Assembly: GCA_019186965.1 (NCBI GenBank)
Contig: JABARV010000002.1
Span: 254,737-318,736 of the forward strand
Reading direction: 5' to 3'
Length of the DNA: 64,000 nucleotides
Origin: Turneriella sp.
Lineage (GTDB): Bacteria; Spirochaetota; Leptospiria; Turneriellales; Turneriellaceae
The notes beneath the pieces are model-generated. The model made no database searches. It saw only the letters and a list, made by a program, of their open reading frames with translations, and had not been told where the DNA came from. The position numbers and the translations under genes are program-made. Numbering within the stretch: position 1 is the first letter of the stretch; every line of letters starts with the position of its first letter. Below, piece by piece: positions 5,212 to 63,306 of the stretch.

Positions 5212-5350
5212 GGTTATCCCTAAATGGTTTAAATTTCATTTTGTATATAATGTAAAGTAATAATCCTTGAATAGAAAAAAGAGCCTACGATAGACAATTT
5301 TCATTGACACCATATTCGAGTTTAACTTACGCGCTCAAAAGTTGCATTGA

Positions 5351-5371
5351 TTGCAAAATTTAGTTTTGCAA
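5351..5371. promoter_or_regulatory. Palindrome in the porin-amtB upstream region (operator candidate)
   Basis: TTGCAAAA and TTTTGCAA are separated by five bases, a perfect 8-bp inverted repeat about 100 bases before the porin start. It lies in the 258-base intergenic stretch 5212-5469, which is AT-rich and also holds a TTGACA at about 5303. A regulator binding here would control the porin-amtB-PII cluster; this is inference. Confidence 0.3.
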
Positions 5372-5469
5372 ACTTTGTAACCTATCTATCGCGTGTGGAG
5401 CAGTAGAAAAGCATACGCGATTGGGTAAACTTGAAAATTAAGATTTTTGGATCTTATAGGAGTAGAAAA

Positions 5470-44927: not shown

Positions 44928-45090
44928 GAAGATTGCCTTAGCGGTTCGTTCGCAGAACGCGGCAATCGCCGTGTGAGCGGGAACAGGACAATGACGCTGC
45001 GGCAGTTGTTGAATAAGTGGGTTTGCGGTGGAGGAAAGTCGCTTATACACTAAGGATGACGCGAGGGAAAGGGATTTTTCTACAGTCTCG
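44928..45090 (+). mobile_element. Relic of the 3' end of the IS1182-like element
   Basis: This segment matches 53674-53836, the end of the IS1182-like element, including the last transposase codons (ATTGCCTTAGCGGTTCG) and the terminal inverted repeat CTACAGTCTCG. It stops exactly where a GTTGGGC core begins (45090-45096). Only this right end is left. The stretch 44784-44927 before it shows no gene, only a possible C-terminal fragment on the minus strand. Confidence 0.8.
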
Positions 45091-45121
45091 TTGGGCGATG
45101 CACGGCGATCGATCAAGCCCT

Positions 45122-45141
45122 GATTGCCATGGAGGGCAATC
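45122..45141. repeat. Small hairpin near the cassette start
   Basis: GATTGCC-ATGGAG-GGCAATC, a 7-bp perfect stem. Like hairpins lie at about 46105, 46864, 47198 and 59583, all near the ends of cassettes with loops ATGGAG, AAGGAT, AAGGAG or ATGGAC. It follows the relE stop on the minus strand. Confidence 0.55.
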
Positions 45142-45147
45142 AGGCGA

Positions 45148-45411
45148 TTAGTAAGCATCTTTTCTTTGAACCGTATGCAGCATGAAAACTATTTGCTCAC
45201 CTTCATCAATAGAATAAATGAGACGAAAATCACCTAATCTATACCTGTACAAACCAGCAAAATTGCCCTTTAGTTTCTTAATGTTATTTCCATAATAGGG
45301 ATTTTCTTTGAGCATAGAATAAATAGTCTTTCTGGCCTTGGCGAATCGATTCTCTAAATTCAATTTCTTCAGGTCATCTTCAAATGTTTCAGTCTCTGCA
45401 ATTTGAAACAT
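45148..45411 (-). CDS. RelE/ParE-family toxin
   Basis: 87 residues. The RelE fold is clear: FEDDLKKLNLENRFAKARKTIYSML, then LKGNFAGLYRYRLGDFRLIYSIDEGEQIVFMLHTVQRKDAY, which matches the type II toxin pattern (GxxRxRxGDYRxxY...H-R). It would cleave mRNA on the ribosome or act on gyrase. The antitoxin gene lies one base upstream. Confidence 0.9.
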   Translation of the reverse strand: MFQIAETETFEDDLKKLNLENRFAKARKTIYSMLKENPYYGNNIKKLKGNFAGLYRYRLGDFRLIYSIDEGEQIVFMLHTVQRKDAY

Positions 45412-45412
45412 T

Positions 45413-45655
45413 TCAGGCCACTATCTTATATTTCTTCTTTTTAACGTCATTTAAGGCCGATTCGATGCCTTTGCTAAATTTTGGGTCTCTTGTATATGAG
45501 CTCATTTCGACGTCATCTACGAAGTCCGATTCAAATAAGTGTTCCAGTAGATGTGTTTCAATATAGTTAGAAATTGACCTGTTCTCGGACATTGCCGCAG
45601 TTTTTACCTGTTTATACGTCTTATCGGGCAATCTGAGCGTTACTGTTTTGGGCAT
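45413..45655 (-). CDS. Antitoxin with ribbon-helix-helix domain
   Basis: 80 residues from ATG 45655, which has AGGAG 6 bases before it; a longer frame to 45682 lacks a site. MPKTVTLRLPDKTYKQVKTAAMSENRSISNYIE is a ribbon-helix-helix DNA-binding domain and the tail would wrap the toxin. Forms a pair with the RelE-like gene and probably represses its own promoter. Confidence 0.88.
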   Translation of the reverse strand: MPKTVTLRLPDKTYKQVKTAAMSENRSISNYIETHLLEHLFESDFVDDVEMSSYTRDPKFSKGIESALNDVKKKKYKIVA

Positions 45656-45806
45656 GTTTACTCCTGAATAAGAATGAATCATTATGACTCATACTGTGTC
45701 AATTTAATTCAAGCCATGGATAATAGGCCAGTATTCTTTGATAATCAGCATGGAAAGACTTGATCATGGATGACCGAGGGGATGTAAGAATTCTTCGCCG
45801 TGTTTC

Positions 45807-46084
45807 GCTCAACGTTCAGATTTCCGCGACGTTTTGACGCCGCATTCAGTAAAGCTTAGTTCTCTTCAATTAGATAATTCGCGGCGTCAAAATGTGCCCG
45901 GAGCGCCTCGCGGCAAAGCACAAAACAAGCGTCCCGCTTGTGCTTTGTCCGCGATCTTCTGGCGCGTAGGGCCGTGAGCGTCTTCGCTCTCCGTCTTCGG
46001 CCATTGGCCTGGCGGCCACCGGCCTGACAGGTGCACGCGACCCAACGGAGTGGTCGCGCCCGCAGCTTGTAAATATTGTTAGGC
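45807..46084. repeat. attC-like site 2 (278 bp)
   Basis: Left core GCTCAAC (45807-45813, RYYYAAC) and right core GTTAGGC (46078-46084, GTTRRRY). Inside: hairpin arms TTTTGACGCCGC/GCGGCGTCAAAA, a GCACAA/TTGTGC arm around ACAAGCGTCCCGCTTGT, an optional module at 46001-46033, hairpin GCGACC-CAACGGAGT-GGTCGC, and CTTGTAAAT before the right core. It closes the toxin-antitoxin cassette 45091-46078. Confidence 0.8.
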
Positions 46085-46129
46085 GCAGTATCTCATTGAT
46101 AGAGGCCATTGCCAAGGATGGCAATGGCG

Positions 46130-46531
46130 TTATACATTCTTTTCCTTTATTTTAGCCAGAAAGGTAGAAACTGTGCTAATGGGAATGTGAAACCCTTGAA
46201 TTTCTCGCAAATCTTTGTCACCACTGACTATGAAATCGACCTTTCCAGCATGGGCTGCGTTAAGAAATTTGTTGTCATCAGCATCTCTGCACAAGGCAAA
46301 CTTTTTCGTAGCTTGAACCAAAATACCAAATTCACGAAAATAATCATGCCATTCTGCTGCAAGGGCTTCGTCATGAGAAAAGTTAAACATGGATCTTTTG
46401 TACTCAGCCAAAATATCCGGAGTAACAATGACGTCAACGATGCCTTCTTTGATAAGACTGAGCAACTCTCGCGGCTTACCGCCAAAGAAAACCGCCGAAA
46501 TCAGCAGATTTGTATCAAAGACTATTCGCAA
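46130..46531 (-). CDS. PIN-domain toxin (VapC-like)
   Basis: 133 residues. PIN nuclease acids are present: MRIVFDTNLLISAV (Asp), the glutamate in ILAEYKR, and CRDADDNKFLNAAHAGKVDFIVSGDKDL (Asp residues). Belongs to the COG1569-type putative toxin group. It overlaps the AbrB-like antitoxin gene by 17 bases and lies in its own cassette. Confidence 0.9.
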   Translation of the reverse strand: MRIVFDTNLLISAVFFGGKPRELLSLIKEGIVDVIVTPDILAEYKRSMFNFSHDEALAAEWHDYFREFGILVQATKKFALCRDADDNKFLNAAHAGKVDFIVSGDKDLREIQGFHIPISTVSTFLAKIKEKNV

Positions 46532-46793
46532 CTTTTTTCTTTCGAGCTGCTTTAATGGCTACACGAATATCACTTTTTTTTAGTCTCTTACGTTTTCTAA
46601 TTTCTTGACTACGAGCAATAAGGTCATTAAACTTAGAAATCCTTGGCGGTTCAATCTTCTGTAAAAGGACATTCTTACCATCAGTCATGATAGCCAGTTT
46701 TGTACCAACGTCTAGCTCCAGTCGTTTGCGAATCTCGGTCGGTATGACTATTTGTCCTTTGGAAGAAAGGCTTGTAATTTCGTATTTTCTCAT
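46515..46793 (-). CDS. AbrB/SpoVT-type antitoxin (VapB-like)
   Basis: 92 residues. SLSSKGQIVIPTEIRKRLELDVGTKLAIM is a swapped-hairpin AbrB DNA-binding domain; the basic helical tail (ARSQEIRKRKRLKKSDIRVAI) would bind the toxin. First gene of the pair with the PIN toxin. Confidence 0.88.
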   Translation of the reverse strand: MRKYEITSLSSKGQIVIPTEIRKRLELDVGTKLAIMTDGKNVLLQKIEPPRISKFNDLIARSQEIRKRKRLKKSDIRVAIKAARKKKVANSL

Positions 46794-46916
46794 GAATGTA
46801 AGACCTTCTTACCTTATAAGGTTAAGCTGTCTATAAAAAATCGACCATTATTTGTTCAATTTCGCTGCCAAGGAGGGCAGCGATGAGGAAATCTTCAAAA
46901 CTTTTTGCGATATTGC

Positions 46917-47165
46917 GCCTAACGTTCAGGTTTACGCGACGTTTTGACGCCGCATACAGTAAAGCCTATTCCACCTCGACTCAAAATTCGCGGCGTCAAA
47001 ATGTGGTCGAAGCGGCTCGTGGCGGCGCACAAAACAAGCGTCCCGCTTGTGCGCCGTCCACGATCTTTGTCGCGCAGACCCGAGCACCCGCGACGAGTCT
47101 TCGAGTCTCCGTCTTCGGTGGAGCTACTGCACCGCAGGGAGCGCAGCAAATAAAATTTGTTGTCT
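46917..47165. repeat. attC-like site 3 (249 bp)
   Basis: Left core GCCTAAC (46917-46923) and right end GTTGTCT (47159-47165). Same interior as site 2 (TTTTGACGCCGC/GCGGCGTCAAAA, ACAAGCGTCCCGCTTGT), without the optional module. The cassette it closes (46079-47159) has ends that pair 14 of 15: 46078-46092 with 46909-46923. Short frames reading through it are not considered genes. Confidence 0.8.
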
Positions 47166-47287
47166 GAAGTAATTGCGCCTGTGAGCCCGACCATGGACGG
47201 CCGGGCGACGACGATTGAACTTTCATGACAGCAGAAAGGACTCATTTTGGAGGCATTTCTACTTTTTTTGCATGATTTTCAGCTAGA

Positions 47288-47328
47288 TTGTGAGAAAAAT
47301 CAACCGTTTTCTGGTATTTAATATATAG
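47288..47328 (+). repeat. Element shared with the gene at 39049-39585
   Basis: GTGAGAAAAATC then GTTTTCTGGTATTTAATATA continuing to TAG; 23 bases are identical to 39660-39638 read in reverse. It precedes the IS91-family transposase frame by 27 bases and may hold its promoter or the left end of the element. Confidence 0.65.
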
Positions 47329-47354
47329 AGGGTCGTGCATGCTCTCCGGAGTAA

Positions 47355-48614
47355 GTTATCTACATCTCTTCGAAATCGGGTCAGCGACCGTACAAACCAG
47401 CACTTACCCGGTATAGTCACTACAAGGCGATCTGGCAGACGCATTGGATTGATTTTCTGGATGCGTACCCAGAGCACTATGAAGGGAAATTCGGAAAGAT
47501 TGACCAATGGAAGTTAGCCGAGGCCAAGAAACTTCTAAATTGCGGCCAATTTGGGAGAGGCTTTCAATGGCATGAATGCGAGTCATGTAAAGTGGTACTG
47601 GCGGTGCCTTTTTCGTGCAAGAGTCGACTCTGCCTGTCTTGTTACCGCAAGCGCCTATTCGGTTGGTCGATTCATCTTTCAAAGGTGCTGAATCCTGCGC
47701 TACTGCACTTTCATGTGGTCTTCACCATGCCGGGTAAATTGGCGGATTTACTTTTGGCACGAAAAATTAACCCGCGGTTTCTAAATCTTCTCGCCGCCAG
47801 AGTTTACGCGAAAAGGCAGCGGGCAACGGCTGTTGTAGATGAAGCCTTTAAGCCAGGAATCTTGAGCACCGTTCATCTTGCAGGCAACAGTTTGAATTTT
47901 AACCCGCACGTTCATGCCATCGCTACGCGCGATCTCGTAAATCCCGAAACCGGAGAGCTGAAAGAAGTCAATTTCATGCCTTACCAGACAATACGTTACG
48001 ATTGGCAACGAGCAATTTGCCGCTTCTTGCGACGGCGAAGGGTTTTATCGAAAGACGAGTATGATTTTTTCCTGAAAAAGTACCCGAAGGGATTTCACGT
48101 GTATTTTCAGAGAATCGCCGGCGAAACCAGCGACGTGATTTTCAAGACAGCGCAATATATCGCATTCGGCTTGTTTCATAACAGCCAAATTGAAAACGTC
48201 GATCACGAAAACAAGAAGGTGACATTCAGATTCAAGAGTCACGTTGATGCACAGAGTAGGGAGAAGACCTTCAGTTCAATAACAATGCCGATTCATGAAT
48301 TCATGGCTCGCATGCTGTTTTTCTTGCCTGACCGGCATGAAAAATCAATCCGTTATTACGGCATCTACGTGCGCCCGGCTAAAGTGGCCGCGACGGAGCA
48401 GGTTGACAAAATTTCCCTGTGGGCTGCTGGTATTAAATCGTCTTTCGACACGCCAAACCCGATGGCTTGCCCTTTGTGCCGGCAAAATATGCGGACATAC
48501 ACAATATTTGCTCGTGACGCGCCTCGCTTTGAGAAGCGCCTGCGTTCAAGATATTTTCTCGCAGACGGTTACTTTTACCTGAAATCTACCAGAGCGCCGC
48601 CTGCAGGCTCATAG
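47355..48614 (+). CDS. IS91-family transposase (HUH type)
   Basis: Up to 419 residues; the frame is open from 47355 after a TAA and has no ATG/GTG/TTG before GTG 47592, although the conserved N terminus (YKPALTRYSHYKAIWQTHWIDF) lies upstream of that, so the true start is unusual or lost. Zinc-binding HECESCK...CKSRLCLSCYRKR, HUH motif LNFNPHVHAIA, then DEYDFFLKKYPKGFHVYF and a C-terminal zinc pair CPLCRQNM. Replicates by rolling circle. It has landed in the cassette that spans 47160-52442. Confidence 0.85.
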   Translation, partial: VIYISSKSGQRPYKPALTRYSHYKAIWQTHWIDFLDAYPEHYEGKFGKIDQWKLAEAKKLLNCGQFGRGFQWHECESCKVVLAVPFSCKSRLCLSCYRKRLFGWSIHLSKVLNPALLHFHVVFTMPGKLADLLLARKINPRFLNLLAARVYAKRQRATAVVDEAFKPGILSTVHLAGNSLNFNPHVHAIATRDLVNPETGELKEVNFMPYQTIRYDWQRAICRFLRRRRVLSKDEYDFFLKKYPKGFHVYFQRIAGETSDVIFKTAQYIAFGLFHNSQIENVDHENKKVTFRFKSHVDAQSREKTFSSITMPIHEFMARMLFFLPDRHEKSIRYYGIYVRPAKVAATEQVDKISLWAAGIKSSFDTPNPMACPLCRQNMRTYTIFARDAPRFEKRLRSRYFLADGYFYLKSTRAPPAGS

Positions 48615-48717
48615 CATGATCGATGTTTGAAGCAGCTGTTTTTTTGCGCATTAACACCGCGGCAGGGCCGTTACGCGCCATTCGCAAATAATACTTGAAT
48701 AAAACGCGAATTCGGCT

Positions 48718-48840
48718 AAATATAGCACTTTAACCCAGCAACTACGCATATAGAGTCATTTTGTCACATCAAAAACAGGCTTTACACCCGAGAAAGCCTA
48801 GGTTCAATAGGCCCCGGTGGGCAGTAATTTCTTATATACT
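48718..48840. repeat. 123-bp direct repeat, left copy
   Basis: Identical to 52050-52172 except for one base (ACTACGCAT against ACTACCCAT). The two bracket a 3.2-kb segment with three genes. The right edge ends in TATACT, a possible -10 element. Confidence 0.95.
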
Positions 48841-49590
48841 GAACAGAAAGATGTTAACCGGGCGATTGCAGAGCTTCGGTCAGAGCTCGCCGCGCAAAAC
48901 ATGCGGATTGCCCACCAAAATGAACTGCTTGCCGAGCTACAACTCTCACGCACACAAAAGACCCTGCGCCTCATGCGCACAAAAAAACGCCTCATCGCCG
49001 CGACGCTGTTCTGTTTCGTGGGGATTCCCCTCTTGCACGCCGCTGTACCGCACACATTCACCGCCGGCACTGCTGCGGTCGCCGCTGACGTGAATGCGAA
49101 TTTCACCAAGCTCGATAACTCGCTCGTGCCCATCGGTGGCATCATCGCGTGGCACAAGAGCATGACAGGCGGCACGCCCTCACTACCGGCCACGGGCGAG
49201 TGGGTCGAGTGCAACGGCCAGACGCTCGGCACCGTCGGTTCTGCCTATGACGGCCAGGTGATACCCAACCTCAACGGCGCGGCGGGCGGCGCCGATTCGC
49301 CGGGACAGTCAGCGAAGGTGGCGATGTTTCTAAGAGGTGGAGTGACATCGGGCACGGGGCAGCAGGATGCGTTTCAGGGGCATCATCATGTTTTAAATTC
49401 GCGCGCGTATGGCGGAGCAATTGCCGGGTACGGTGGCAATTCTTCGACGACGACGCAAACAGCTGATTCTGATCCCAGTTATTTTAATGTCGGGGATCCG
49501 AAATCCGACGGCACCAACGGCACACCGCGCACGTCGAGTGAAACCCGGCCGGTGAATATGAGCGTCGTGTGGATTATGAGGGTGAAGTGA
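48817..49590 (+). CDS. Phage tail collar-like protein with coiled coil and membrane segment
   Basis: 257 residues from GTG 48817, inside the direct repeat; ATG 48973 would give a 205-residue protein beginning with signal peptide MRTKKRLIAATLFCFVGIP. Upstream of that ATG the frame encodes a good coiled coil (AIAELRSELAAQNMRIAHQNELLAEL), favouring the long form. The C-terminal domain reads PIGGIIAWHKS, GEWVECNGQTL, IPNLNG, FLRGG, GHHHVL and ETRPVNMSVVWIMRVK, the pattern of phage tail-collar/tail-fibre domains, also found in bacterial exported proteins. Confidence 0.75.
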   Translation: MGSNFLYTEQKDVNRAIAELRSELAAQNMRIAHQNELLAELQLSRTQKTLRLMRTKKRLIAATLFCFVGIPLLHAAVPHTFTAGTAAVAADVNANFTKLDNSLVPIGGIIAWHKSMTGGTPSLPATGEWVECNGQTLGTVGSAYDGQVIPNLNGAAGGADSPGQSAKVAMFLRGGVTSGTGQQDAFQGHHHVLNSRAYGGAIAGYGGNSSTTTQTADSDPSYFNVGDPKSDGTNGTPRTSSETRPVNMSVVWIMRVK

Positions 49591-49593
49591 GGG

Positions 49594-49686
49594 GCCTCAC
49601 CCCCCGGCCCCCCCTCCTAAAGGAGAGGGGGAGAAAGAGTTTCCCCTCTCCTTTAGGAGAGGGGTGGCCGAAGGCCGGGGTGAGGC
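49594..49686. repeat. GC-rich REP-type palindrome between two genes
   Basis: GCCTCACCCC... at the left and ...GGGGTGAGGC at the right are complementary, with inner arms CTCCTAAAGGAGAGGGG and CCCCTCTCCTTTAGGAG. Its right edge supplies the GTG (49680) used as start of the next gene. This type of repeat is widespread in bacteria. Confidence 0.85.
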
Positions 49687-50675
49687 TGCTTCTCCTCGCG
49701 CTGGCGACGCAAGCGCTCACCGCCGCGCCGATGAAGAGCGCGCCGGTCGTGGTGGGCGAAGCACCTACAGAAGCACCGGCGAAGAAGCTCATTTTTCTCG
49801 ATTTCTATAATGAGGCGAATGACAAGAACCTGCAATATGTGGCGAACTCGATTGGCGATGCGGTGCATGAATCGATCAAGGGCAAATACCGTTATGACAG
49901 AATTGCATCCTCAACCTGGAAAAAATATGCCGCTCAGCAAAAATGGACAGAAAAAGATTTTTTTGATGCGGTAAAAATTCGCGAGATGGGGCGCGTGCTC
50001 GGAGCCGATGGCGTCATCTATGGCAAGTATGTGTCGAAAGAAGGCAACCTTGAAATTCAGGGCGTGATTTTTTCTGTCATCGACGGCGAAATTGTCGACG
50101 AGCAGAACGGGCAGACGCCGACGAATGCGCAGATGTTCGAGACGATCAACCAGGTCGCCGACAACCTCGCGAAAAAAATCAAAGACCTGTTCGTGCCGTC
50201 TGACCGCGGTGCGCTCACGCGCTCGCTGCTTTTTCCCGGTTGGGGGCACCACTACAAGCAGCGCCATGGCTGGGGCAATTTCTGGATGATTTCAGGTGGC
50301 ACGGCGGTTGCGTTCACCGCGACGATGGGCACGCTCTTTGTTGTCATGAAGAACCAGTACGACACGTACAAGCCGCAACATTACAAGAACGATGCGGGTG
50401 GCACGGGCCTTTACGATCAGGCTGCGGCGCAGTCTGAGTTCGATCGCCTCGAGACGCAGGCGAACCAGTATGGCCAGCTCGCGCTCATCGGCGGCGTGGT
50501 GACCGCAGGCATTTGGCTCGGCGCGATGCTGCACGCGTACTTCATCGAGCCCGATGTCGGCAACGCCGCGCTACCGAAAGTCGCCGAAGCGAACCCACTG
50601 CAGTTCAACCTCGGCGCTGACGAGAGTGCGCTGCCAGGCCTTCGCGCCACTTTTTCATATACAGGGAAATTTTAA
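49680..50675 (+). CDS. Exported protein with FlgO/CsgG-like domain and C-terminal membrane segments
   Basis: 331 residues from GTG 49680, giving a signal peptide (LLLLALATQALTAAP); an in-frame ATG at 49569 would translate the whole GC-rich repeat. LIFLDFYNEANDKNLQYVANSIGDAVHESIKG and MGRVLGADGVIYGKYVSKEG resemble the CsgG/FlgO-type fold. Two hydrophobic segments follow (FWMISGGTAVAFTATMGTLFVV and LALIGGVVTAGIWLGAMLHAYFI) after SLLFPGWGHHYKQRHGWG. Envelope role likely; family uncertain. Confidence 0.65.
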   Translation: MRLLLLALATQALTAAPMKSAPVVVGEAPTEAPAKKLIFLDFYNEANDKNLQYVANSIGDAVHESIKGKYRYDRIASSTWKKYAAQQKWTEKDFFDAVKIREMGRVLGADGVIYGKYVSKEGNLEIQGVIFSVIDGEIVDEQNGQTPTNAQMFETINQVADNLAKKIKDLFVPSDRGALTRSLLFPGWGHHYKQRHGWGNFWMISGGTAVAFTATMGTLFVVMKNQYDTYKPQHYKNDAGGTGLYDQAAAQSEFDRLETQANQYGQLALIGGVVTAGIWLGAMLHAYFIEPDVGNAALPKVAEANPLQFNLGADESALPGLRATFSYTGKF

Positions 50676-50688
50676 ATAGGGGGGATCT

Positions 50689-51783
50689 ATGAGCGTACGT
50701 AATACATTCAACTCACTTGCGATTCTTGCACTGGTTATTTCTGCGGGTTGCAAGCTGAACAAAGATGGCAACTGCCTTAACCCCAAGGCCGGGTGCTTCG
50801 TGAAAGATACTGAGGCGCCGAGGGTGACGGTGACCGACCCGCCCTCGACTGAAACAAATCCTGCTGCGCCGAACCAACCATCCTTATCACAGATAGTCAT
50901 CACCTTCAGCGAGCCAATGAAGAATGCCGGCGACAAGTCAAACTACAGCGTAACGCCTATCGACGCGACAATCGGTTCAATTGATAAACTGAGCGATACA
51001 AGTTATCGTGTTAACTTCAGCAATCCGCCGACAGGTGTTGCTCAAGCAGTATTGAATATTGCTCCATTGACTGATCTCTCTGATAACGCAATTACTGTGG
51101 CCACGAGCACAATCACAGTACCACTGGAACCAATACAGGCTACCCACACTTTTGTTAGCAACCAAGCAGGCTCGTTTCAGAGTACTGATTTGACCTGGAA
51201 GAACGGAAATCTGGTAGCGGTAGATTATACGGTCAAGAAGGGTGGCACGAGCTGCGCAACTGCAACAGCACTTTCTGGTACCAATGTCTCAGGTACGGGG
51301 CTTGCGGCAAATGCGCAGGTTGTTACCACACTCGACCGCCTTCAATTTACTGATCAGGTTGCCACTAAGGTATGGGTTTGTCAGGTTAATGTCGGGGCCG
51401 GGGTGAATGTGGAGCTCGAAACTACCATCACCAGGGATGATACCTCACCATCGGTTGGCACTATCACAGCCGGCATATATCCTCGCCCACATACAATTAC
51501 GCTTACGTGTTCTGACAATGCCGAGCGCATCGCGTATAGAACCGATGGCATCGCGCCGACTTATACCGTTGCGCGCGTCGAGGTGAATCCCGCAGTCCAG
51601 TACGTGACGGCGACGGGCTACGCGTTGCCGATGGGCGAAATCAACCTAATATACAGCTGCGTTGATCGCGCAGGGAATATCAGCACAGCCAGCGCCGTCT
51701 ACAACCTTAAGTCAGCGATGGTGTGGGGTACCAGCTTGTGGTCAGCGCCAGGCCCCACACCGCCTTACGACGTCTGGAAATAA
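50689..51783 (+). CDS. Lipoprotein with Ig-like domains
   Basis: 364 residues. Lipobox VISAGCKL (Cys21). The first domain (ITFSEPMKNAGDKSNYSV ... YRVNFSNPPTG ... LTDLSDNAI) is a Big/SbsA-type Ig-like domain; the last (ITLTCSDNAERIAYRTDGIAPTYT) resembles the chitobiase/HEX C-terminal type domain. Probably surface-exposed. It follows the previous gene by 13 bases, with GGGGGG-type site before ATG. Confidence 0.75.
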   Translation: MSVRNTFNSLAILALVISAGCKLNKDGNCLNPKAGCFVKDTEAPRVTVTDPPSTETNPAAPNQPSLSQIVITFSEPMKNAGDKSNYSVTPIDATIGSIDKLSDTSYRVNFSNPPTGVAQAVLNIAPLTDLSDNAITVATSTITVPLEPIQATHTFVSNQAGSFQSTDLTWKNGNLVAVDYTVKKGGTSCATATALSGTNVSGTGLAANAQVVTTLDRLQFTDQVATKVWVCQVNVGAGVNVELETTITRDDTSPSVGTITAGIYPRPHTITLTCSDNAERIAYRTDGIAPTYTVARVEVNPAVQYVTATGYALPMGEINLIYSCVDRAGNISTASAVYNLKSAMVWGTSLWSAPGPTPPYDVWK

Positions 51784-51787
51784 CCTC

Positions 51788-51812
51788 GGTGAATCACCAA
51801 AAGTGATTCACC
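51788..51812 (+). terminator. Hairpin after the Ig-like lipoprotein gene
   Basis: GGTGAATCAC-CAAAA-GTGATTCACC, a perfect 10-bp stem starting 4 bases after the stop; no T-run follows. Confidence 0.6.
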
Positions 51813-51821
51813 GGAAATTCA

Positions 51822-51989
51822 CTACTCTGTCTTCACCGGTGAGGTCAGCGCTGCCTTGCAGCCGTCGCTCAGCTGGGCCTCGTTTTCTTTGAGGCACTTG
51901 ATGATACGGCCTTCGCCGGCTTTCACCTGCTTGCAGAGCTTCTTGTAGTCGGCTTTGCAGGCCTTTTTAATATCGCGGCTCTTTATTAT
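51822..51989 (-). pseudogene. Remnant of a cysteine-rich repeat protein gene
   Basis: The minus strand encodes KKACKADYKKLCKQVKAGEG, then RIIKCLKENEAQLSDGCKAAL, ending TSPVKTE and a stop at 51822. The C-x7-C ... C-x11-C spacing matches the cysteine-rich repeat seen in Golgi-apparatus-protein-1-like and bacterial exported proteins. The frame is stopped just upstream, so only about 55 C-terminal residues remain. The rest of the gap 51784-52526 holds a direct repeat and an attC-like site. Confidence 0.6.
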
Positions 51990-52049
51990 CGCTTTGTTTT
52001 TTTATTTTCGCGACATCGCGCGAAAATAAGAAAAATCACGCCATGCATA

Positions 52050-52172
52050 AAATATAGCACTTTAACCCAGCAACTACCCATATAGAGTCATTTTGTCACA
52101 TCAAAAACAGGCTTTACACCCGAGAAAGCCTAGGTTCAATAGGCCCCGGTGGGCAGTAATTTCTTATATACT
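52050..52172. repeat. 123-bp direct repeat, right copy
   Basis: See 48718-48840; 122 of 123 bases identical. A palindrome TTATTTTCGCG/CGCGAAAATAA lies just to its left at about 52000-52030. Confidence 0.95.
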
Positions 52173-52234
52173 TAATTCGAATTACGTTGCCGCGCCGACA
52201 CGAGGTCGGCGAATAACAAAGGCGCAATTATTTC

Positions 52235-52444
52235 AGACAACGCGGAATTTACCTGACGTTTGGTGACGCAAGTGTCATTAATTCAACCTGTAAGGCCATT
52301 TTGCGTCACCAAATGTGCCCGAAGCGCCTGCCCGAGCCCGGCAAAACCAAGCCCCCGCTTGGCCAGGCGCAGGGCATCTTAGGCGCGTAGGGCAGAGCAC
52401 GCGACCCAACGGAGTGGTCGCGTGCGCAGCTTGTAAATCTTGTT
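52235..52444. repeat. attC-like site 5 (about 210 bp), cut by an IS
   Basis: Left end AGACAAC, then GGAATTTACCTGACG, hairpin arms TTTGGTGACGC/GCGTCACCAAA, GCACGCGACC-CAACGGAGT-GGTCGCGTGC, and CTTGTAAATCTTGTT at the right. Bases 52221-52241 pair with 47159-47179 at 20 of 21, marking the two ends of one cassette. The IS1182-like element begins directly after GTT (52444). Confidence 0.8.
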
Positions 52445-53836
52445 GAAACTGTAGAAAAAGTTCTTGATTCTTTAGTTTTCTGTGCTATCTTGAAATTCAG
52501 ATCATGAAACGAGGGAGAAAACTCACATGGCACGATTTAGAAAAACAAATCTTACACAGCACATGCTCGTAGCCGTCGAACTGCAGGAGCAACTGATGCG
52601 CGGGACAATGGAGAAAACGATTAATGATCTGATTGATCGAATGGACATGAAGGTCTTTATGGATCGCTACAAGAACGACGAGACCGGCGCTCCGGCATAC
52701 GATCCGCGGATTCTCCTGAAAATAATCCTATTCGCCTACTCGCAGGAATTCTCTCGTCGCGCAAAATTGCACAGGCCGCAGAGAAAAACATCACCTTCAT
52801 TGCCTTGAGCGGTTACTCGAAGCCCGATTTTACCACCATTGCGCACTTTGTCTCTTCTATGGAACGGGAAATCATGTTCGTTTTTACCTATGTCCTGAAA
52901 GTCTGCCAGCGACTTGATCTTATTGGTGGCGAGCGTTTTGCTTTGGATGGACACCAATCGGCTGGTAGCCTCTTGGCTAACAGCAAAATGTCATCCAATG
53001 CGTCGAAAGAAATGTCCGGCACATTCCCGAAGTTCGAGAAAAAGGTCTCCAAGCTCAAAGCAATCCTCGCTGACCTGATGCAGCAGCACAAAACTGCCGA
53101 CACCGAAGAGGCTAAGCATTCACTTTCGCAACGGATTAAAAAAAAAGAGCACATGATTGAAAAGATAGAAACGTTCGTCGCTGAAAACGAACCCAAGAAA
53201 CCGACGCGCAAAGCGAACGTCTATGCAAATCAGAAGAAAGAAAAATTGCGCGGCTATGGTGCAACTGATTTCACTTATAATGACGCGCTCGATCAGTTCA
53301 CCTGTAAAAATGGCAAGCTACTGACGCGCTGGGGATCGAGTATGCGTGGCGATGCGCGCTACGGCATCGCAAAGGGCGAATGTGCAGCGTGTTCGCTCCT
53401 TACGACCTGCATGCCGCGTGCAAAACAAGGCTCGCGCAAGACGCTAACTGTAAAAACAGAGGCTACGACGAACAGAAATATGCCATTCACCGCGCTGATG
53501 CGTGCGAAAATCGACTCACCGGAAGGTCGGCTGATCTACTCGCAGCGCATGAAGATTATCGAACCGGTGTTTTCGAACATAACGGTGCAAAAGGGGATGC
53601 ATAAGTTCACGCTGCGGGGCAAGACGAAGGTGGGGATTCAGAATTTACTCTACTACATTGTGCACAACATCGGGAAGATTGCCTTGGCGGTTCGTTCGCA
53701 GCACGTGGCAATCGCCGTGTGAGCGGGAACAGGACAATGAAGCTGCGGCAGTTGTTGAAAAAGTAAGTTTGCGGCGCAGGGCAGTCGCTTATACACTAAG
53801 GATGACGCGAGGGAAAGGGGTTTTTCTACAGTCTCG
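52445..53836 (+). mobile_element. IS1182-like insertion sequence
   Basis: Terminal inverted repeats GAAACTGTAGAAAAA (left) and TTTTTCTACAGTCTCG (right) enclose one transposase gene. The left end abuts GTT of attC-like site 5 and the right end abuts a GTTGTGT core at 53836-53842. A relic of the same right end lies at 44928-45090. Confidence 0.85.
52527..53722 (+). pseudogene. IS1182-family transposase with a frameshift
   Basis: The first frame (MARFRKTNLTQHMLVAVELQ ... LLKIILFAYSQ) breaks near 52744; one missing G would restore GILSSRKIAQAAEKNITFIA and join it to SGYSKPDFTTIAHF. The rest is DDE transposase: FALDGHQSAGSLL, KKEHMIEKIETF, CAACSLLTTCMPRA, and RMKIIEPVFSNITVQKGMHKFTLRG. Most likely inactive, though a programmed frameshift is not excluded. 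Confidence 0.85.
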
Positions 53837-53855
53837 TTGTGTGATGCGCGACCAA

Positions 53856-54638
53856 TTAGGAAAGTTTCTTGTAACAATTATAACAGACTGGCTTGACGAT
53901 GCTGCCCTTATTGGGTTTACCGCACGAATGACAATATTTCTCGACATAATCAGGATTTGAGTACGCCTTCCATTCCTTGTAACACTCGCTACAGAGAGGC
54001 TTGTCTGGACTTAATTCAATAGACTTCTTACACCGAATGCAATAGCCAGAATTATGAACTTGGTTTCTTTTGGGCGCAGGGGCAACTAAGGACCAAAGTT
54101 TTTTGGACGCGATGGGACTTTTTGTTGGAATTTCAAATTCTTCCAAAAAATCTTCGGTCAGATAGACAGACTTGATCCGAATGATAGGTATGATGAATCC
54201 GAAGTCAGGTGACGCCGGCTTCCCCGCGACACCGAGACAAATAAACACAGGTTGTTCTGCATTGAGTTTCTTATGGCGTTCAAACTGACCAGGATTCGCA
54301 TATTGAAGTGCGCCATTCTCGTTGACCCCATTTCGGTATTTTGCCTCAACGTAGAAATTGCGTTTCGTATCTAAGCACTGGAAAGTGAAGTCTGGCTGCT
54401 TAGAGTTTTCGACATAATCCCGGCTGTTTTGAGAATACCCTTGAGTTTTGTGTATGAGCTTATACCTGTCGTCAGTAAAAAGTTGCTTTCGGACAAAGTC
54501 TTCAAAAGCCTCACCTTTCTTAAATGATTCCGGCGTATTCAAATCATCTTTCAGAACTTGAGCTGCTTTCATTAAACTCTGGAAAATGCCCATACTGCTT
54601 TTGTCCTTTATGTTAAAAATATCTTGGTCGCGTTTCAC
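53856..54638 (-). CDS. PD-(D/E)XK nuclease-like protein with C-terminal zinc ribbons
   Basis: 260 residues. GEAFEDFVRKQLF (glutamate), then KQPDFTFQCLDTKRNFYVEAKYRNG form the PD...EAK core of restriction-type nucleases at residues 43-105. The C-terminal 70 residues hold two zinc ribbons: YCIRCKKS...LCSECYKE and YCHSCGKP...VCYNCYKK. Likely a DNA-cleaving defence protein. It is the only gene of cassette 53837-54928, whose ends (53836-53855 and 54624-54643) pair 18 of 20. Confidence 0.75.
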   Translation of the reverse strand: MKRDQDIFNIKDKSSMGIFQSLMKAAQVLKDDLNTPESFKKGEAFEDFVRKQLFTDDRYKLIHKTQGYSQNSRDYVENSKQPDFTFQCLDTKRNFYVEAKYRNGVNENGALQYANPGQFERHKKLNAEQPVFICLGVAGKPASPDFGFIIPIIRIKSVYLTEDFLEEFEIPTKSPIASKKLWSLVAPAPKRNQVHNSGYCIRCKKSIELSPDKPLCSECYKEWKAYSNPDYVEKYCHSCGKPNKGSIVKPVCYNCYKKLS

Positions 54639-54934
54639 ACAACGTGGAATTTACCTGACGTTTTGACTTGGCATGTCTTCATGGCAAGGCAAAATGTGGG
54701 TGGAGCGGCTCGTGGTGGCGCACAAAAACAAGCATCCCGCTTGTGCGCCATCCACGATCTTCGCCGCGCAACCCCGAGCACGCGCGACGAGTCTTCGCGA
54801 CCAAAGCGATTTCACAGAAATCGCGAGGTCTCTGTCCTCAGAGTCTCCGTCTTCGGCCATTGGCCTGGCGGCCACCGGCCTGACAGGTGGAGCTACGGCA
54901 CCGCAGCGAGCGCAGCAGGTAAATTTTGTTCTGC
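54637..54934. repeat. attC-like site 6 (298 bp)
   Basis: Ends ACACAAC and GTTCTGC. Inner stem AATTTACCTG (54648-54657) pairs perfectly with CAGGTAAATT (54916-54925), with 4 spacer bases on the left and 2 on the right. Then TTTTGACTTG/CAAGgCAAAA, the ACAAGC/GCTTGT arm, hairpin GCGATTTC-ACA-GAAATCGC, and the optional module at 54857-54890. Confidence 0.8.
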
Positions 54935-54946
54935 GCCGTATTGATT

Positions 54947-56002
54947 TCAAAGCATGCTCTTGATTCGTTTAGCAATGTCTTCACCTCGAAGGTCTTTTGC
55001 AGCGATTAGTCCATTCTGGTCTATCAAATAGATTGTTGGATACCTGAGGATATTGTATTTTTTTGAAACTTCGCCAAAGAAGGCTTCTCCCTCGAAGATA
55101 TTAGGCCAATTAAGGTTGTCCTTTCGAATGAGTGTCCGTAGATCACTTTTGTTATGATCCCCAGCTATGCCAATGATTTGCACTTGTTCTTGAAATTCTT
55201 CAGCAATCTTCTTTAAATGAGGAAATTCGCCATGGCATGGACCACATGTCGTGGCCCAGAAGAAAAGTAGCCGAATTTTATCAGAATTCTTCGTCAACGC
55301 AATCTTCTGGTCATTTAGATCAGTGCCTTCAAAAACGGGAGCTTTCATACCAATTTTTAGGTTTTGAATTTCATAGATGTAGCCGGCAGCGTGTTTAACG
55401 TAGTATTCGCTATGATTTCTTTCAACTATGTCGCGAAAGCCAGCAAGAGCTAATTCATAATCACCTTTTTCCAGGTAATATTCAGCCTTCTTGAATTTCA
55501 AAAAATGTTCTGTTTTTGACCCTACACCTTTCTTTAGGATGCGCACATAGAGATCAAATTCCGTAAAATCTTTATCAAAACGGCCATCTCGCGAATATGA
55601 ACTGGTTATGCCATTCAGAATGTCCGGATAAATATCATTTTCGATCATTTTAGACAAGGCCGAGTCAACAATTGCACTCGTCCCTTTGAGGTTCCCCCAC
55701 ATAAGAAACGCCTGCTTTAAGGCTTGGATCGAAAGGGTTGAGGGTCGCTCTCGGAGGTAATAGTCAAAGTATTCCTTTGCCAGTGCATATTGCGGATCCT
55801 TGGTACTGTCTTTTTCCTTACTGTCCCAATAGGCAAAAATCAATCGCCAATCACGTCGATTTTTCCAATTGAATTGGAGCTCAGCGATCGACTTCGGCCA
55901 TTTCAGATAATGGAGCACATTAACTGTTTCAATCAGCAGGAGGAAAAGAAGCATCTTCCACGAGTGCTTTTTTACAAATCCTATGTATTTATTCCGCTGC
56001 AT
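54947..56002 (-). CDS. Membrane-anchored TlpA-like thioredoxin
   Basis: 351 residues. A hydrophobic N-terminal anchor (KMLLFLLLIETVNVLHYLKW), a helical TPR-like middle (FLKFKKAEYYLEKGDYELALAGFRDIV), then a TlpA/AhpC-TSA domain from about 215: GMKAPVFEGTDLND, LFFWATTCGPCHGEFPHL with the CGPC active site, and RYPTIYLIDQNG with the cis-proline. Likely a periplasmic disulfide reductase. Single gene in cassette 54929-56353. Confidence 0.85.
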   Translation of the reverse strand: MQRNKYIGFVKKHSWKMLLFLLLIETVNVLHYLKWPKSIAELQFNWKNRRDWRLIFAYWDSKEKDSTKDPQYALAKEYFDYYLRERPSTLSIQALKQAFLMWGNLKGTSAIVDSALSKMIENDIYPDILNGITSSYSRDGRFDKDFTEFDLYVRILKKGVGSKTEHFLKFKKAEYYLEKGDYELALAGFRDIVERNHSEYYVKHAAGYIYEIQNLKIGMKAPVFEGTDLNDQKIALTKNSDKIRLLFFWATTCGPCHGEFPHLKKIAEEFQEQVQIIGIAGDHNKSDLRTLIRKDNLNWPNIFEGEAFFGEVSKKYNILRYPTIYLIDQNGLIAAKDLRGEDIAKRIKSML

Positions 56003-56033
56003 AATCTTCGAAAATATGTCTTATCAATATGGC

Positions 56034-56359
56034 ACACAACGTTGGATTTACAAGAAGTTGATGACGCGCCGCACTATAAATGCGGGCTTTTTCGGAAGCC
56101 GCATATTTGCGCGTCATCAATTTGCCGAACCCACAGCGTTGCGCCGCACCGAATGCACGTCCCGTGCGTGCGGCGTCAACGCTTCTTTGTGGGTGAGGCC
56201 GAGCACGCGCGACGAGTCTTCGCGACCAAAGCGATTTCACAGAAATCGCGAGGTCTCTGTCCTCAGAGTCTCCGTCTTCGGCCATTGGCCTGGCGGCCAC
56301 TGGCCTGACAGGTGGAGCCACGGCACCGCAGGGAGCGCAGCAGGTAAATTTTGTTGGGC
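56034..56359. repeat. attC-like site 7 (326 bp)
   Basis: Ends ACACAAC and GTTGGGC (GTTRRRY). Left arm GTTGGATTTACAAG, right arm CAGGTAAATTTT (the two halves look like they come from different subtypes). Hairpin arms GATGACGCGCCGC/GCGCGTCATC, module GCGATTTC-ACA-GAAATCGC, and the optional module at 56282-56314. Confidence 0.8.
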
Positions 56360-56404
56360 GCAGTTGACTCACGGTAATTGATAAAAAGTTCGATAATATT
56401 AACA

Positions 56405-57082
56405 ATGTCAAACAAAAATGCCGAAGCCCTCAGTTGCCAGCCGATTGCCATAAAGACAAAATACTTCAATAAGAACGCGAAGTTACCCTACGGCCTTAAT
56501 ATTGGAAACATTCAGAAAGCGATGAATGAATTTACCAAATTTCTTGGCTTTGTCAATACGCAGCTAAATTCCAAGAAGATGGCTCGGCTTGAGAGTATGC
56601 TTATGCCTGCGAATTTTAGCAGTATGGTTGGTGAATTTATGGTCAGCAACATTCCCAAATATTGCAAGACCTTAGTAAAAAACCAGTTTCATAATGGTCA
56701 CCCGGACCTAATTCAACGCGATAAATTTCCGAATGATGCCGTTCAGCATGCTGAAGCAGGTATTGAGGTAAAGGGCTCTAGGTACGGTCGTGGATGGCAA
56801 GGACACAATCCTGAGAATGCATGGCTAATGGTATTCGTTTTTGACAGCAATAGACCAGTTGACCCAGCCGAGGGAATTGAACCAAAACCTTTCAGATTTC
56901 TTAAGGTCGTCGGCGCACAACTAAACAAGAATGATTGGCTTTTTTCAGGACGATCTGCAACAAGTAGACGCACGATTACCGCAAGTGTCACAAATTCAGG
57001 GTATGAAAAAATGTCCAAAAACTGGATTTACATGGACTATGAGGCGAATAAGCCAGATGAGACTTCGGCTGATGATGAATAA
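56405..57082 (+). CDS. Probable type II restriction endonuclease
   Basis: 225 residues from ATG 56405. NGHPDLIQRDKFPND and HAEAGIEVKGSRYGRGWQGHN give a PD...ExK nuclease core near residues 105-145. The partner methyltransferase gene is convergent and overlaps its 3' end by 46 bases. Both lie in one cassette (56354-58322). It would cut the sequence protected by the methyltransferase; specificity cannot be read. Confidence 0.75.
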   Translation: MSNKNAEALSCQPIAIKTKYFNKNAKLPYGLNIGNIQKAMNEFTKFLGFVNTQLNSKKMARLESMLMPANFSSMVGEFMVSNIPKYCKTLVKNQFHNGHPDLIQRDKFPNDAVQHAEAGIEVKGSRYGRGWQGHNPENAWLMVFVFDSNRPVDPAEGIEPKPFRFLKVVGAQLNKNDWLFSGRSATSRRTITASVTNSGYEKMSKNWIYMDYEANKPDETSADDE

Positions 57083-58005
57083 TCGCGATTCGGCGCATAA
57101 GAGTCACCATTTAATGCTGGTATTGCACGCTCTGCTTCTTTAAAAAATCGTGGATTGATTTCAATCCCGATACATGCGTAATTGAAGTGTGCTGCTGCAG
57201 CTAAAGTTGTGCCGGCCCCCATGAATGGATCAAGAATTACACCCTCGCCCAAAGGCAGTGCAGAATAGACAATTTCGCGCATAAACGATTGCGGCTTGAG
57301 ACTTGGATGATCAGCCGTCGCTCGTTCCCATTTAGTTGTTCGTTCACTATTAATTACGTCCGAAAAAGGTAAACCATCTCTGCGCCGTCTTAAGCCGCCG
57401 GTTTTATTCTGACGTAAGCATTCTGCAACTGTCATTCGATTTGGTAACGCTTTTCGGAATAGACCCCATGGTTCATAAGAGCCACGTGGCATGGAGCAGA
57501 CTTCTGGAAATTCTGTTTCAGCATTTTTAGGCCTATCACCACCACGTAACGTTTGAACGAGTCGAATAACCTCGCCGCGAAACTCTAAGCCACCCTTAAC
57601 CATGGCTTCAAATACCATTTGTGAGAGAAAACTATTCGATGCTAAAATCACATGCCCGCCTGGCTTTAGGACGCGATTTAATTCGCTTGAGAGATTTGCA
57701 AAAAATTCAAATAGCTCGGTGCGTTCTTTTGCATTAAGGGCGGTGAATCTGGGCAAAGGGGCTCGTTGGTTGCCGTCGAAAGATGGGGGAATTCGCCAGA
57801 TGCCACCACGCCCAAGATCCTTTTTGGCAAGCTGATCTTCATAGAACTCTTTGACCCCATAAGGTGGGTCAGTCACTACTGCGTGAATAGACTCAGAAGG
57901 CATCTGCCGCATCACAGCGAAACTATCAGCCAAAACGCCAATAACTCGCCGATATTCAAAGTGCTCAATCTTCTCATCGTTAAAACCAAGCATTGCAAGC
58001 GACAT
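57037..58005 (-). CDS. DNA methyltransferase (beta-type, N6-adenine or N4-cytosine)
   Basis: 322 residues. Motif IV VTDPPYGVKEFYED comes first (about 45), then NRVLKPGGHVILASNSFL, and near the C terminus motif I DPFMGAGTTLAAAAHFNYACIGIEINP, the order of beta-class enzymes. LPLGEGVILDPF precedes motif I. Protects host DNA against the neighbouring endonuclease. Confidence 0.9.
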   Translation of the reverse strand: MSLAMLGFNDEKIEHFEYRRVIGVLADSFAVMRQMPSESIHAVVTDPPYGVKEFYEDQLAKKDLGRGGIWRIPPSFDGNQRAPLPRFTALNAKERTELFEFFANLSSELNRVLKPGGHVILASNSFLSQMVFEAMVKGGLEFRGEVIRLVQTLRGGDRPKNAETEFPEVCSMPRGSYEPWGLFRKALPNRMTVAECLRQNKTGGLRRRRDGLPFSDVINSERTTKWERATADHPSLKPQSFMREIVYSALPLGEGVILDPFMGAGTTLAAAAHFNYACIGIEINPRFFKEAERAIPALNGDSYAPNRDYSSSAEVSSGLFAS

Positions 58006-58119
58006 AATACAGAATGATGCTACTTTTTCATCAGGTCAAGTAATTTAAGATCATGATTGAGTAAAATTCTGTAACGATTAACTGACCTACCAGAATAACA
58101 ATATCTAATAGCCAATGGC

Positions 58120-58328
58120 GCAGAACGTTGGATTTACAAGACGTAAAGTGACGCTTCGTTCAACTTTGCATCTATAAAGCCGTTTTGCGTCACTTTATGT
58201 GCCGAGGGCACCTGCCGACGAGCGCAAAATGCACTTCACGTGCGCGCGAGGAGGCAGTCCAGGTGCCCGAGGCCGAGCACACGACCCAACGGAGTGGTCG
58301 CGCGCGCAGCTTGTAAATCTTGTTGTAC
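58120..58328. repeat. attC-like site 8 (209 bp)
   Basis: The cleanest copy. GATTTACAAG (58131-58140) pairs perfectly with CTTGTAAATC (58310-58319), again with 4 and 2 spacer bases to the AAC and GTT. Interior: TAAAGTGACGC/GCGTCACTTTA, GGGCACCTGCC/GGCAGTCCAGGTGCCC type arm, and CGACC-CAACGGAGT-GGTCG. Confidence 0.8.
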
Positions 58329-58337
58329 GTCGTGCTT

Positions 58338-59231
58338 TTAGGTGAGAATCTTGTAATAAGTCTTGCTGGAAGCAGCCCCGTGTATAGCATTTTCAATGGA
58401 GAGTTTCTTGAATTTTCCAGCTTGAATTTCTTTTTTGAGAGATTTTTCAAATCGTTCCGTATTTCTTAGGATACGTCTGTTTTCGTTTCCAAGTATGGCT
58501 GAAATTGTATAAACGTGATCCTTCTTGAGATTCGTTGCATTCCCGATGCGCTTCAGAACTAATTCTCTGAATTCTTTGTAAGAATTAATTGGGAGCTCAA
58601 GAGTCGGAATAAACATTCCTTCAAAACCATAAAGAGACGTCAGAAGGTTCTGCAATATCTCTAAGGCCAAAAGGATTTTCTCTTTTTCGTATGCCTTTAA
58701 CGCATGTACAGCATCATTTCCGAGAAACCTAATTGCATGCAGCCGGCTCGAGTCTAATTTGGAAATCAGCCCTTTTTTCTGTAGATTGGTTATCTGATTT
58801 TCGAGATGTTTTCCTGGTACCTTTTTATCAATAGCTATGGCTTCAATGATCATTCTCAAGCCTGCACCAGCTAAGACTAGGTTTTCGTCCTTAATGGCAT
58901 TCGTAGTCTCCACATAAATATTGCTGATGTCATCCGGAAACCAAGCAGCCCTCTTAAAGCGCTTGGCTTCTGGGAGAAAATTCGGAAAAATCTTCACTAC
59001 AATATCATGAATCCATTCACCGTCGTCAGCCGTGTAGCCACCTTCATAATCGTGCATTTCATACCGAAACGACGTGTGGCCACAACCTGCGCATTCGAGA
59101 GTGAAATATTTCTCTTCAGCGTGGTAGTCATCTGAGGGTTGTGAGCCAACACTATGCAGAAACAATATTTTATGCTGAGTCTCTTGAAGACATTTCTCAC
59201 AGAGAGAAGATTTTAGCTTGATCTGATCCAT
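58338..59231 (-). CDS. DUF4145 protein with N-terminal zinc ribbon
   Basis: 297 residues. CEKCLQ and CAGCGH form a zinc ribbon in the first 60 residues; the DUF4145 core follows: LVLAGAGLRMIIEAIAID, HLENQITNLQKKGLISKLDSSRLHAIRFLGNDAVHALK, LEILQNLLTSLYG. DUF4145 proteins often occur with restriction and other defence genes; activity unknown. Single gene in cassette 58323-59550. Confidence 0.8.
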   Translation of the reverse strand: MDQIKLKSSLCEKCLQETQHKILFLHSVGSQPSDDYHAEEKYFTLECAGCGHTSFRYEMHDYEGGYTADDGEWIHDIVVKIFPNFLPEAKRFKRAAWFPDDISNIYVETTNAIKDENLVLAGAGLRMIIEAIAIDKKVPGKHLENQITNLQKKGLISKLDSSRLHAIRFLGNDAVHALKAYEKEKILLALEILQNLLTSLYGFEGMFIPTLELPINSYKEFRELVLKRIGNATNLKKDHVYTISAILGNENRRILRNTERFEKSLKKEIQAGKFKKLSIENAIHGAASSKTYYKILT

Positions 59232-59246
59232 ATTTTAAAGCATGGC

Positions 59247-59556
59247 ACACAACGTGGAATTTACCTGACGTTTTGACTTGTGGCGTCTTCGCTACAAGTC
59301 AAAATGTGCCCGAAGCGGCTCGTGGCGGCGCACAAAACAAGCGTCCCGCTTGTGCGACGAAGGCATCTTTGGCGCGCAGGGCCGTGACCGAAACGATTGC
59401 GCAGCAATCGTGAGGTCTCCGTCTTCGGTGCACACGCGACGAGTCTTCGCGACCAAAGCGATTTCACAGAAATCGCGAGGTCTCTGTCCTCAGAGTCTCC
59501 GTCTTCGGTGGAGCTACGGCACCGCAGCGAGCGCAGCGCGTCAAATCTTGTTCTGC
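59247..59556. repeat. attC-like site 9 (310 bp)
   Basis: Ends ACACAAC and GTTCTGC. Left arm GTGGAATTTACCTG as in site 6, hairpin TTTTGACTTGT/ACAAGTCAAAA, the ACAAGCGTCCCGCTTGT arm, GCGATTTC-ACA-GAAATCGC, no optional module; the right arm (CAAATCTT) is less well paired. It closes the DUF4145 cassette and is the last complete site. Confidence 0.78.
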
Positions 59557-61177: not shown

Positions 61178-61184
61178 GTTATGC

Positions 61185-63121: not shown

Positions 63122-63306
63122 ACGGTTACCGCCAACGATCTGGAACCATGGATGTACTTACGGTATCTGTTCGCTAAGCTGCCGCTATGCCAGAGCGACG
63201 ACGAAATGCGCGCTCTATTGCCGCATCGAGTCGAAAGGGCTACCGTCGAGAATTTTGATCCGAGCGCGCATCGCTCCGGGCTCCGCGCGGTTGCTTAGAC
63301 GGTTAC
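63121..63306 (+). repeat. Tandem second copy of the IS66 right end
   Basis: About 180 bases repeat 62941-63127 with roughly ten percent differences, including the last transposase codons (AACGATCTGGA) and a second terminal repeat. It suggests that two IS66 copies met here and recombined. Confidence 0.8.

Follow-up and report, generated by a model that had tools for sequence, protein, structure and literature searches.

IS1182-family elements of Turneriella sp. and other bacteria lie at the core of integron attC sites, the probable target of their DDE transposase

We characterized a defective insertion sequence (IS) in a 64,000-nucleotide stretch of Turneriella sp. DNA (assembly GCA_019186965.1, contig JABARV010000002.1, positions 254,737 to 318,736, hereafter the window), where the surrounding DNA is, judging by its attC ends, an integron cassette array. 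The element is very probably a decayed member of a distinct subgroup of the IS1182 family whose DDE transposase would insert specifically into the attC core. The insertion point lies directly after the GTT of the core GTTRRRY (the R' box, at which the integrase exchanges cassettes), with the rest of the attC retained on one side of the element and an intact cassette start on the other. The clade members compared came from 13 genomes of Spirochaetota and 3 replicons of Alteromonadales (16 genomes or replicons in two phyla). Feature coordinates in the window are collected in Table 1.

The original prediction, made from the window alone, held that the left end of the element abuts the GTT of an attC and that the right end abuts GTTGTGT, whose continuation pairs with the far end of the next cassette; both junctions were found as described. 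The left junction reads ...GCAGCTTGTAAATCTTGTT(52444)/GAAACTGTAGAAAAAG, with GTT at 52442-52444 and the element starting at 52445, and the right junction reads GTTTTTCTACAGTCTC(53835)/GTTGTGTGATGCG, the sequence from 53836 being GTTGTGTG (a slash within a sequence marks an insertion or crossover point throughout). The cassette start at 53835-53855 is 90% complementary to the far end at 54624-54644 (inverted repeat I18), of which 54624-54643 reads TTGGTCGCGTTTCACACAAC; besides AAC, 15 of 17 positions pair, against a mean of 8.4 and a maximum of 12 in shuffled sequences. In the uninterrupted sister attC at 58115-58324, the last ~50 bases are nearly identical to those of the occupied attC, and GTAAATCTTGTT leads without a break into the cassette that follows. 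The bottom strand of the occupied attC is predicted to form a hairpin closing on ACAAC and GTTGT (-56 kcal/mol with DNA parameters, no shuffle test), and the value for the top strand is about equal. The transposase gene of this copy is broken, with a shift of the reading frame near 52755 and a loss of ~110 residues from the middle of the DDE domain as compared with complete relatives. Frameshifted and deleted in this way, the window copy is dead and can no longer move by itself.

Similar placements were found elsewhere in the genome and genus. A relic of a second copy in the window had been described as spanning 44928-45090 and ending before GTTGGGC at the same relative position. Its position was confirmed, except that the last base of the relic is 45089 and that 45090-45092 is already the cassette GTT; the relic is directly followed by GTTGGGCG (GTTGGGC...). 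The same genome holds a third copy (contig 18, L003). Its right end adjoins the edge of a cassette carrying a TlpA-like gene, with the junction CGACAAC/GAATCTGTAG, and the two ends of that cassette agree at 14 of 17 positions. The congener G015 carries an 822-bp derivative, GTT/GAGACTGTAG...CTACAGTCTC/GTTGTCGG, downstream of which lies the matching cassette end CCGACAAC, and in the congener G017 one end reads AAC/GAATCTGTAG.

Searches with profile A1 and the window protein detected complete or partial members in further Spirochaetota (G021, G084, G145, G151, G186, G204, G213, G303, G310 and G349), with intact copies in G021, G204, G349 and G310. A tblastn search of plasmid records yielded Pseudoalteromonas piscicida, Pseudoalteromonas sp. 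NC201 and Catenovulum adriaticum at ~40% identity, every other plasmid match being at 24-28%. A protein search of genome contigs with the truncated window transposase matched only a congener metagenome-assembled genome, the wider set coming from the whole-genome profile A1 searches, and no relatives were found in the viral contigs searched. The pattern GANNCTGTAGAAAAA, searched across the order, gave 23 matches, which were mostly chance matches in unrelated sequence and were kept only where element context was present. Among fragment ends, GTT or AAC was present at all of those with three or fewer mismatches to the repeat; matches with four mismatches were mostly due to chance, and only the one in G145 was counted.

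When the flanks of these copies were listed, as the original prediction had proposed, they lay at attC cores and not at unrelated sequences. As read from sequence, GTT or its complement AAC adjoins 58 of 60 element ends. On the cassette side, all 35 ends carry GTT followed by a purine (A in 27 and G in 8; for example GTTAGGC, GTTATAC and GTTATGC), which fits the integron core GTTRRRY. An exact 3-bp direct repeat, GTT or AAC on the other strand, was present in 15 of the 17 copies with two flanks, and none had a longer repeat. Unoccupied attC sites in the G204 array read TATAACAACGAG and the occupied site reads TATAAC/element/AACAACGAG, the sole difference being the element plus one AAC. Of the 24 copies that could be oriented, 21 have the transposase gene directed away from the attC stem, and those of G084, G186 and Catenovulum have it directed towards the stem. 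We also considered GTT as a part of the element; this was ruled out, as its orientation flips relative to the transposase in these last three. GTT belongs to the target because it keeps its position relative to attC and not to the gene. Note that the tips of most copies start with GAR, which gives each junction GTT plus three purines, nearly an intact core GTTRRR; the tips in G021 (CTGG and GTAG) depart from this start. Such near-intact cores possibly keep the neighbouring cassettes mobile.

We next asked of each cassette-side end whether an AAC-ended stretch downstream is complementary to the first 20 bases past the element, in comparison with 300 shuffles of the query. This test replaced one of R'/R'' arm pairing against shuffles, which was unsuited because R' in an array belongs to the next cassette. 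A partner was found at p<0.01 for 14 of 34 ends and at p<0.05 for 17, the best of them matching at 13-16 of 17 positions. Among the ends that lacked a partner are those on short contigs and those in the arrays of G204, G349 and the Alteromonadales, for which pairing over only ~7 bases is expected. In the window genus, the R''-side stem of an attC follows the pairing partner, and the element at the cassette start therefore occupies R' of the preceding attC. The remaining resolved cases appear to be alike in this, although R' and R'' are near mirror images. The placement of the copies supports the earlier proposal that the transposase would recognise these sites.

The family assignment was confirmed with NCBIfam model NF033551 (IS1182 transposase, curated cut-off 270 bits), which the complete relatives match: those of G021 and G310 scored 313.9 and 296.7 bits, and those of G349 and G204 lay just below the cut-off with 268.4 and 262.3 bits. 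The score of the window fragment, 131.9 bits, is low because of its deletion. The enzyme is a DDE transposase (Pfam DDE_Tnp_1_6/DDE_Tnp_1, NF033551) and is not a member of the DEDD IS110/IS1111 family. In a maximum-likelihood tree, the attC-inserted transposases group together as a single clade (100/100 support), separate from 12 other IS1182 members, including G003, whose branch is long, ISPmo1, ISPa7, an ISPa22-like element and the IS1272-like element of phiPV83. One change of state on this tree accounts for attC insertion, and the placement is restricted to that clade: GTT or AAC on both sides was found in none of the nine IS1182 controls with definable ends. The G003 control has a 4-bp ATTG repeat and no attC. 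Flanks matched each other as inverted repeats at at least 5 of 14 positions in seven of the nine controls, with a mean of 6.0 for all nine versus 3.0 in the attC group, and the flanks of the controls agree with the hairpin targets reported for IS1272 and TnSha1 (PMC5678879, PMC4923244).

Several points weigh against attC-specific insertion. Two of the 60 ends deviate (ATC in G349 copy 2 and ATT, one base off, in G213b), which could be later mutations, and in G015 the left flank is not clearly recognisable as an attC. The ends include near-copies in G021, G204 and G151, so that 60 ends amount to ~38 insertions, or fewer if arrays were duplicated. A simple L''/L' attC detector reached p<0.05 at only 8 of 19 sites. 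This weak result arises because the attC sites here are long and divergent, and the attC identity of some copies is therefore given by the core and cassette pairing alone. Finally, no transposition was observed.

Other explanations of the placement were weighed on the same evidence. The transposase might merely prefer a short sequence, GTT plus purines, and strike attC because the core is frequent in arrays, with the rest of the site unrecognised. GTT/R is indeed the sole run of invariant letters at the sites, and the interior stems vary between genomes; however, GTTR is abundant in every cassette and gene, where no copy was found, and in 14 cases insertion at a cassette end is backed by pairing, so that we regard this explanation as unlikely. 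There is little reason to expect guidance by RNA, although the IS1111 members ISKpn4 and ISPst6 reach attC in this way, through a seekRNA (PMC11187229). The transposase here is DDE and not DEDD, and in a weak test its short non-coding ends shared no more sequence with the flanks than with shuffled flanks. It is just as improbable that the element was moved as a gene cassette by an integrase. Its boundaries do coincide with the integrase crossover, and like a gene cassette it lies between two G/TT crossover points, but neither end has an attC of its own, both are inverted repeats of the ordinary IS kind, the duplication is of exactly 3 bp, and the gene orientation is not fixed, 3 of 24 orientable copies being reversed. 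Least credible is an absence of targeting, with insertions elsewhere purged and copies surviving in cassette arrays as neutral DNA: arrays are dispensable and rich in mobile elements, and most copies here are decayed, yet survival would scatter copies over cassettes and non-coding DNA rather than set 58/60 ends on one trinucleotide and 35/35 on GTTR, and other IS1182 members do not have the GTT/AAC placement.

For insertion into the attC core by the transposase, we infer the following course from the placement. The transposase would bind attC through the core sequence, the folded hairpin or both, a 3-nt staggered cut would be made around GTT, and the 3' ends of the element would be joined there, with repair leaving GTT on both sides. 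The window copy would have moved while its own gene, or that of a helper copy, was still intact. Use of the hairpin is plausible because attC is a hairpin and hairpins are the reported choice of the IS1182 family, and recognition of the core sequence alone is possible because the core holds the only invariant letters. A bolder proposal, to which we give somewhat less than an even chance, is that this DDE clade evolved structure-specific targeting of the attC hairpin in its folded state (cruciform or single-stranded), in the manner of the integron integrase, inserted at the core with a 3-bp duplication, and spread through arrays across phyla, as a second independent invention after IS1111.

The attC group shares with the IS1182 family (NF033551; IS1272, ISPa7 and ISPmo1) the transposase family, a single gene, (G)AG-CTGT-type terminal inverted repeats and a length of ~1.7-1.8 kb when complete. 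IS1272 and TnSha1, of the same family, choose hairpins as targets (PMC5678879, PMC4923244). IS1272 enters many hairpins unrelated to one another, with loss of part of the hairpin and no duplication of the target, whereas in the attC group the attC is kept, exactly GTT is duplicated and insertions were found only at attC cores. By its sequences, the group is thus a member of IS1182, yet not IS1272-like in insertion outcome. The attC-targeting IS1111 elements ISKpn4 and ISPst6 (PMC11187229, citing Tetu and Holmes 2008 and Post and Hall 2009) likewise insert at one end of cassette attC sites, but they have DEDD transposases, subterminal repeats and a guide seekRNA, in contrast to the DDE transposase, terminal repeats and 3-bp duplication of the window-type elements. 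PMC7923331 describes group IIC as the sole class of introns with a link to integrons up to that study. Group IIC-attC introns also have attC as the insertion target; they are retroelements, whereas the coding content of the window element is limited to the remnant of a DDE transposase. A fragment of a group II intron maturase occurs close to the attC-inserted IS1182 element of Catenovulum adriaticum (L073:3733-4245 and 5001-6149). A literature search returned no report of IS1182 at attC, and the open papers naming both are not apparently about targeting; subscription papers and ISfinder entries were outside this search. The subgroup is therefore IS1182 by transposase and IS1111-attC-like by target, and an earlier note of it that we have not seen is possible.

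The attC 3' ends in the window are of one type, with GTT finishing at 46080, 47160, 52444, 54930, 56355, 58324 and 59553. The array (45090-59553) belongs to a Spirochaetota lineage apparently outside the Treponema clade, which was named in 2013 as the sole integron-bearing group of spirochaetes (PMC3607928). As read from open reading frames (ORFs), its cassettes putatively encode a RelE/ParE-type toxin-antitoxin pair, an AbrB/PIN pair, a TlpA-like protein and a methyltransferase with a partner gene. The 5.3-kb cassette upstream of the element contains an IS91-type transposase (Y2_Tnp plus Zn_Tnp_IS91; 47592-48614) and a 126-bp direct repeat (48718-48843 and 52050-52175; 98% identical, 3332 bp apart) around several genes. 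Outside the array, 61180-63300 resembles, on inspection, a decayed IS66-type element with interrupted reading frames.

Complete IntI genes above the curated cut-off were located at ~5-19 kb from the three complete copies of G204 and at ~9 kb from one of the G349 copies; in G204, a complete IntI (384 bits) is found ~5-6 kb beyond the last element copy. In the window genome, the search for IntI gave none above the curated cut-off. A 396-aa tyrosine recombinase with an N-terminal extension is encoded there on contig 14 (L151:3624-4811 of G000; also L152, L153 and L155). It scores 178 bits against the integron-integrase model (cut-off 265), matching only outside ~positions 178-237, and it ends an array of window-type attC sites (attC at ~L151:2305-2525, cassette end at ~3500). 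Ends of attC also occur near homologues in G015 and G012. This recombinase is possibly a divergent integron integrase of arrays otherwise filed as integrase-less.

Table 1. Positions of the element, its relic and the neighbouring cassette features in the window.
Feature	Position	Strand	Basis
Relic, right end of second element copy	44928..45089	+	93% identical to last 162 bp of element, E=5e-63
Cassette beginning at right end of relic (GTTGGGC...), ending in attC 45815-46080	45090..46080	+	13/17 pairing, shuffle maximum 12
Upstream 5.3-kb cassette ending in occupied attC	47158..52444	+	47159-47183 pairs with 52217-52241, 92% complementary (pair I7)
attC occupied by element (R'' AGACAAC ... L' GTAAATCTT, GTT)	52235..52444	+	Sister site; bottom-strand hairpin
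GTT of attC R' core, left copy of 3-bp target duplication	52442..52444	+	3-bp direct repeat in 15/17 two-flank copies
IS1182-family element, defective copy, 1391 bp	52445..53835	+	16-bp inverted repeats; comparison with other copies
Left terminal inverted repeat GAAACTGTAGAAAAAG	52445..52460	+	Complementary to right end; same ends in G015
Transposase gene, 5' part up to frameshift	52527..52760	+	Translation; weak DUF772 match
Transposase gene, 3' part	52754..53722	+	Translation; DDE_Tnp_1_6 E=7e-18; NF033551 in two separate stretches
Right terminal inverted repeat, GTTTTTCTACAGTCTC on + strand	53820..53835	-	Read from sequence; comparison with other copies
GTT, right copy of target duplication and opening bases of next cassette	53836..53838	+	Cassette pairing; two-flank comparison
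Downstream cassette with attC 54636-54930	53836..54930	+	Ends pair; 260-aa ORF on - strand
Uninterrupted sister attC, empty target site	58115..58324	+	Sequence comparison

IS elements that target attC have so far been known from one family, IS1111, and a DDE case would mean that integron arrays were entered at least twice by unrelated transposases. It would also be a natural case of a hairpin-preferring family turned site-specific, tying the preference of IS1182 for hairpins to the attC hairpin. For the arrays themselves, attC-inserted IS1182 elements can block, split or carry cassettes.
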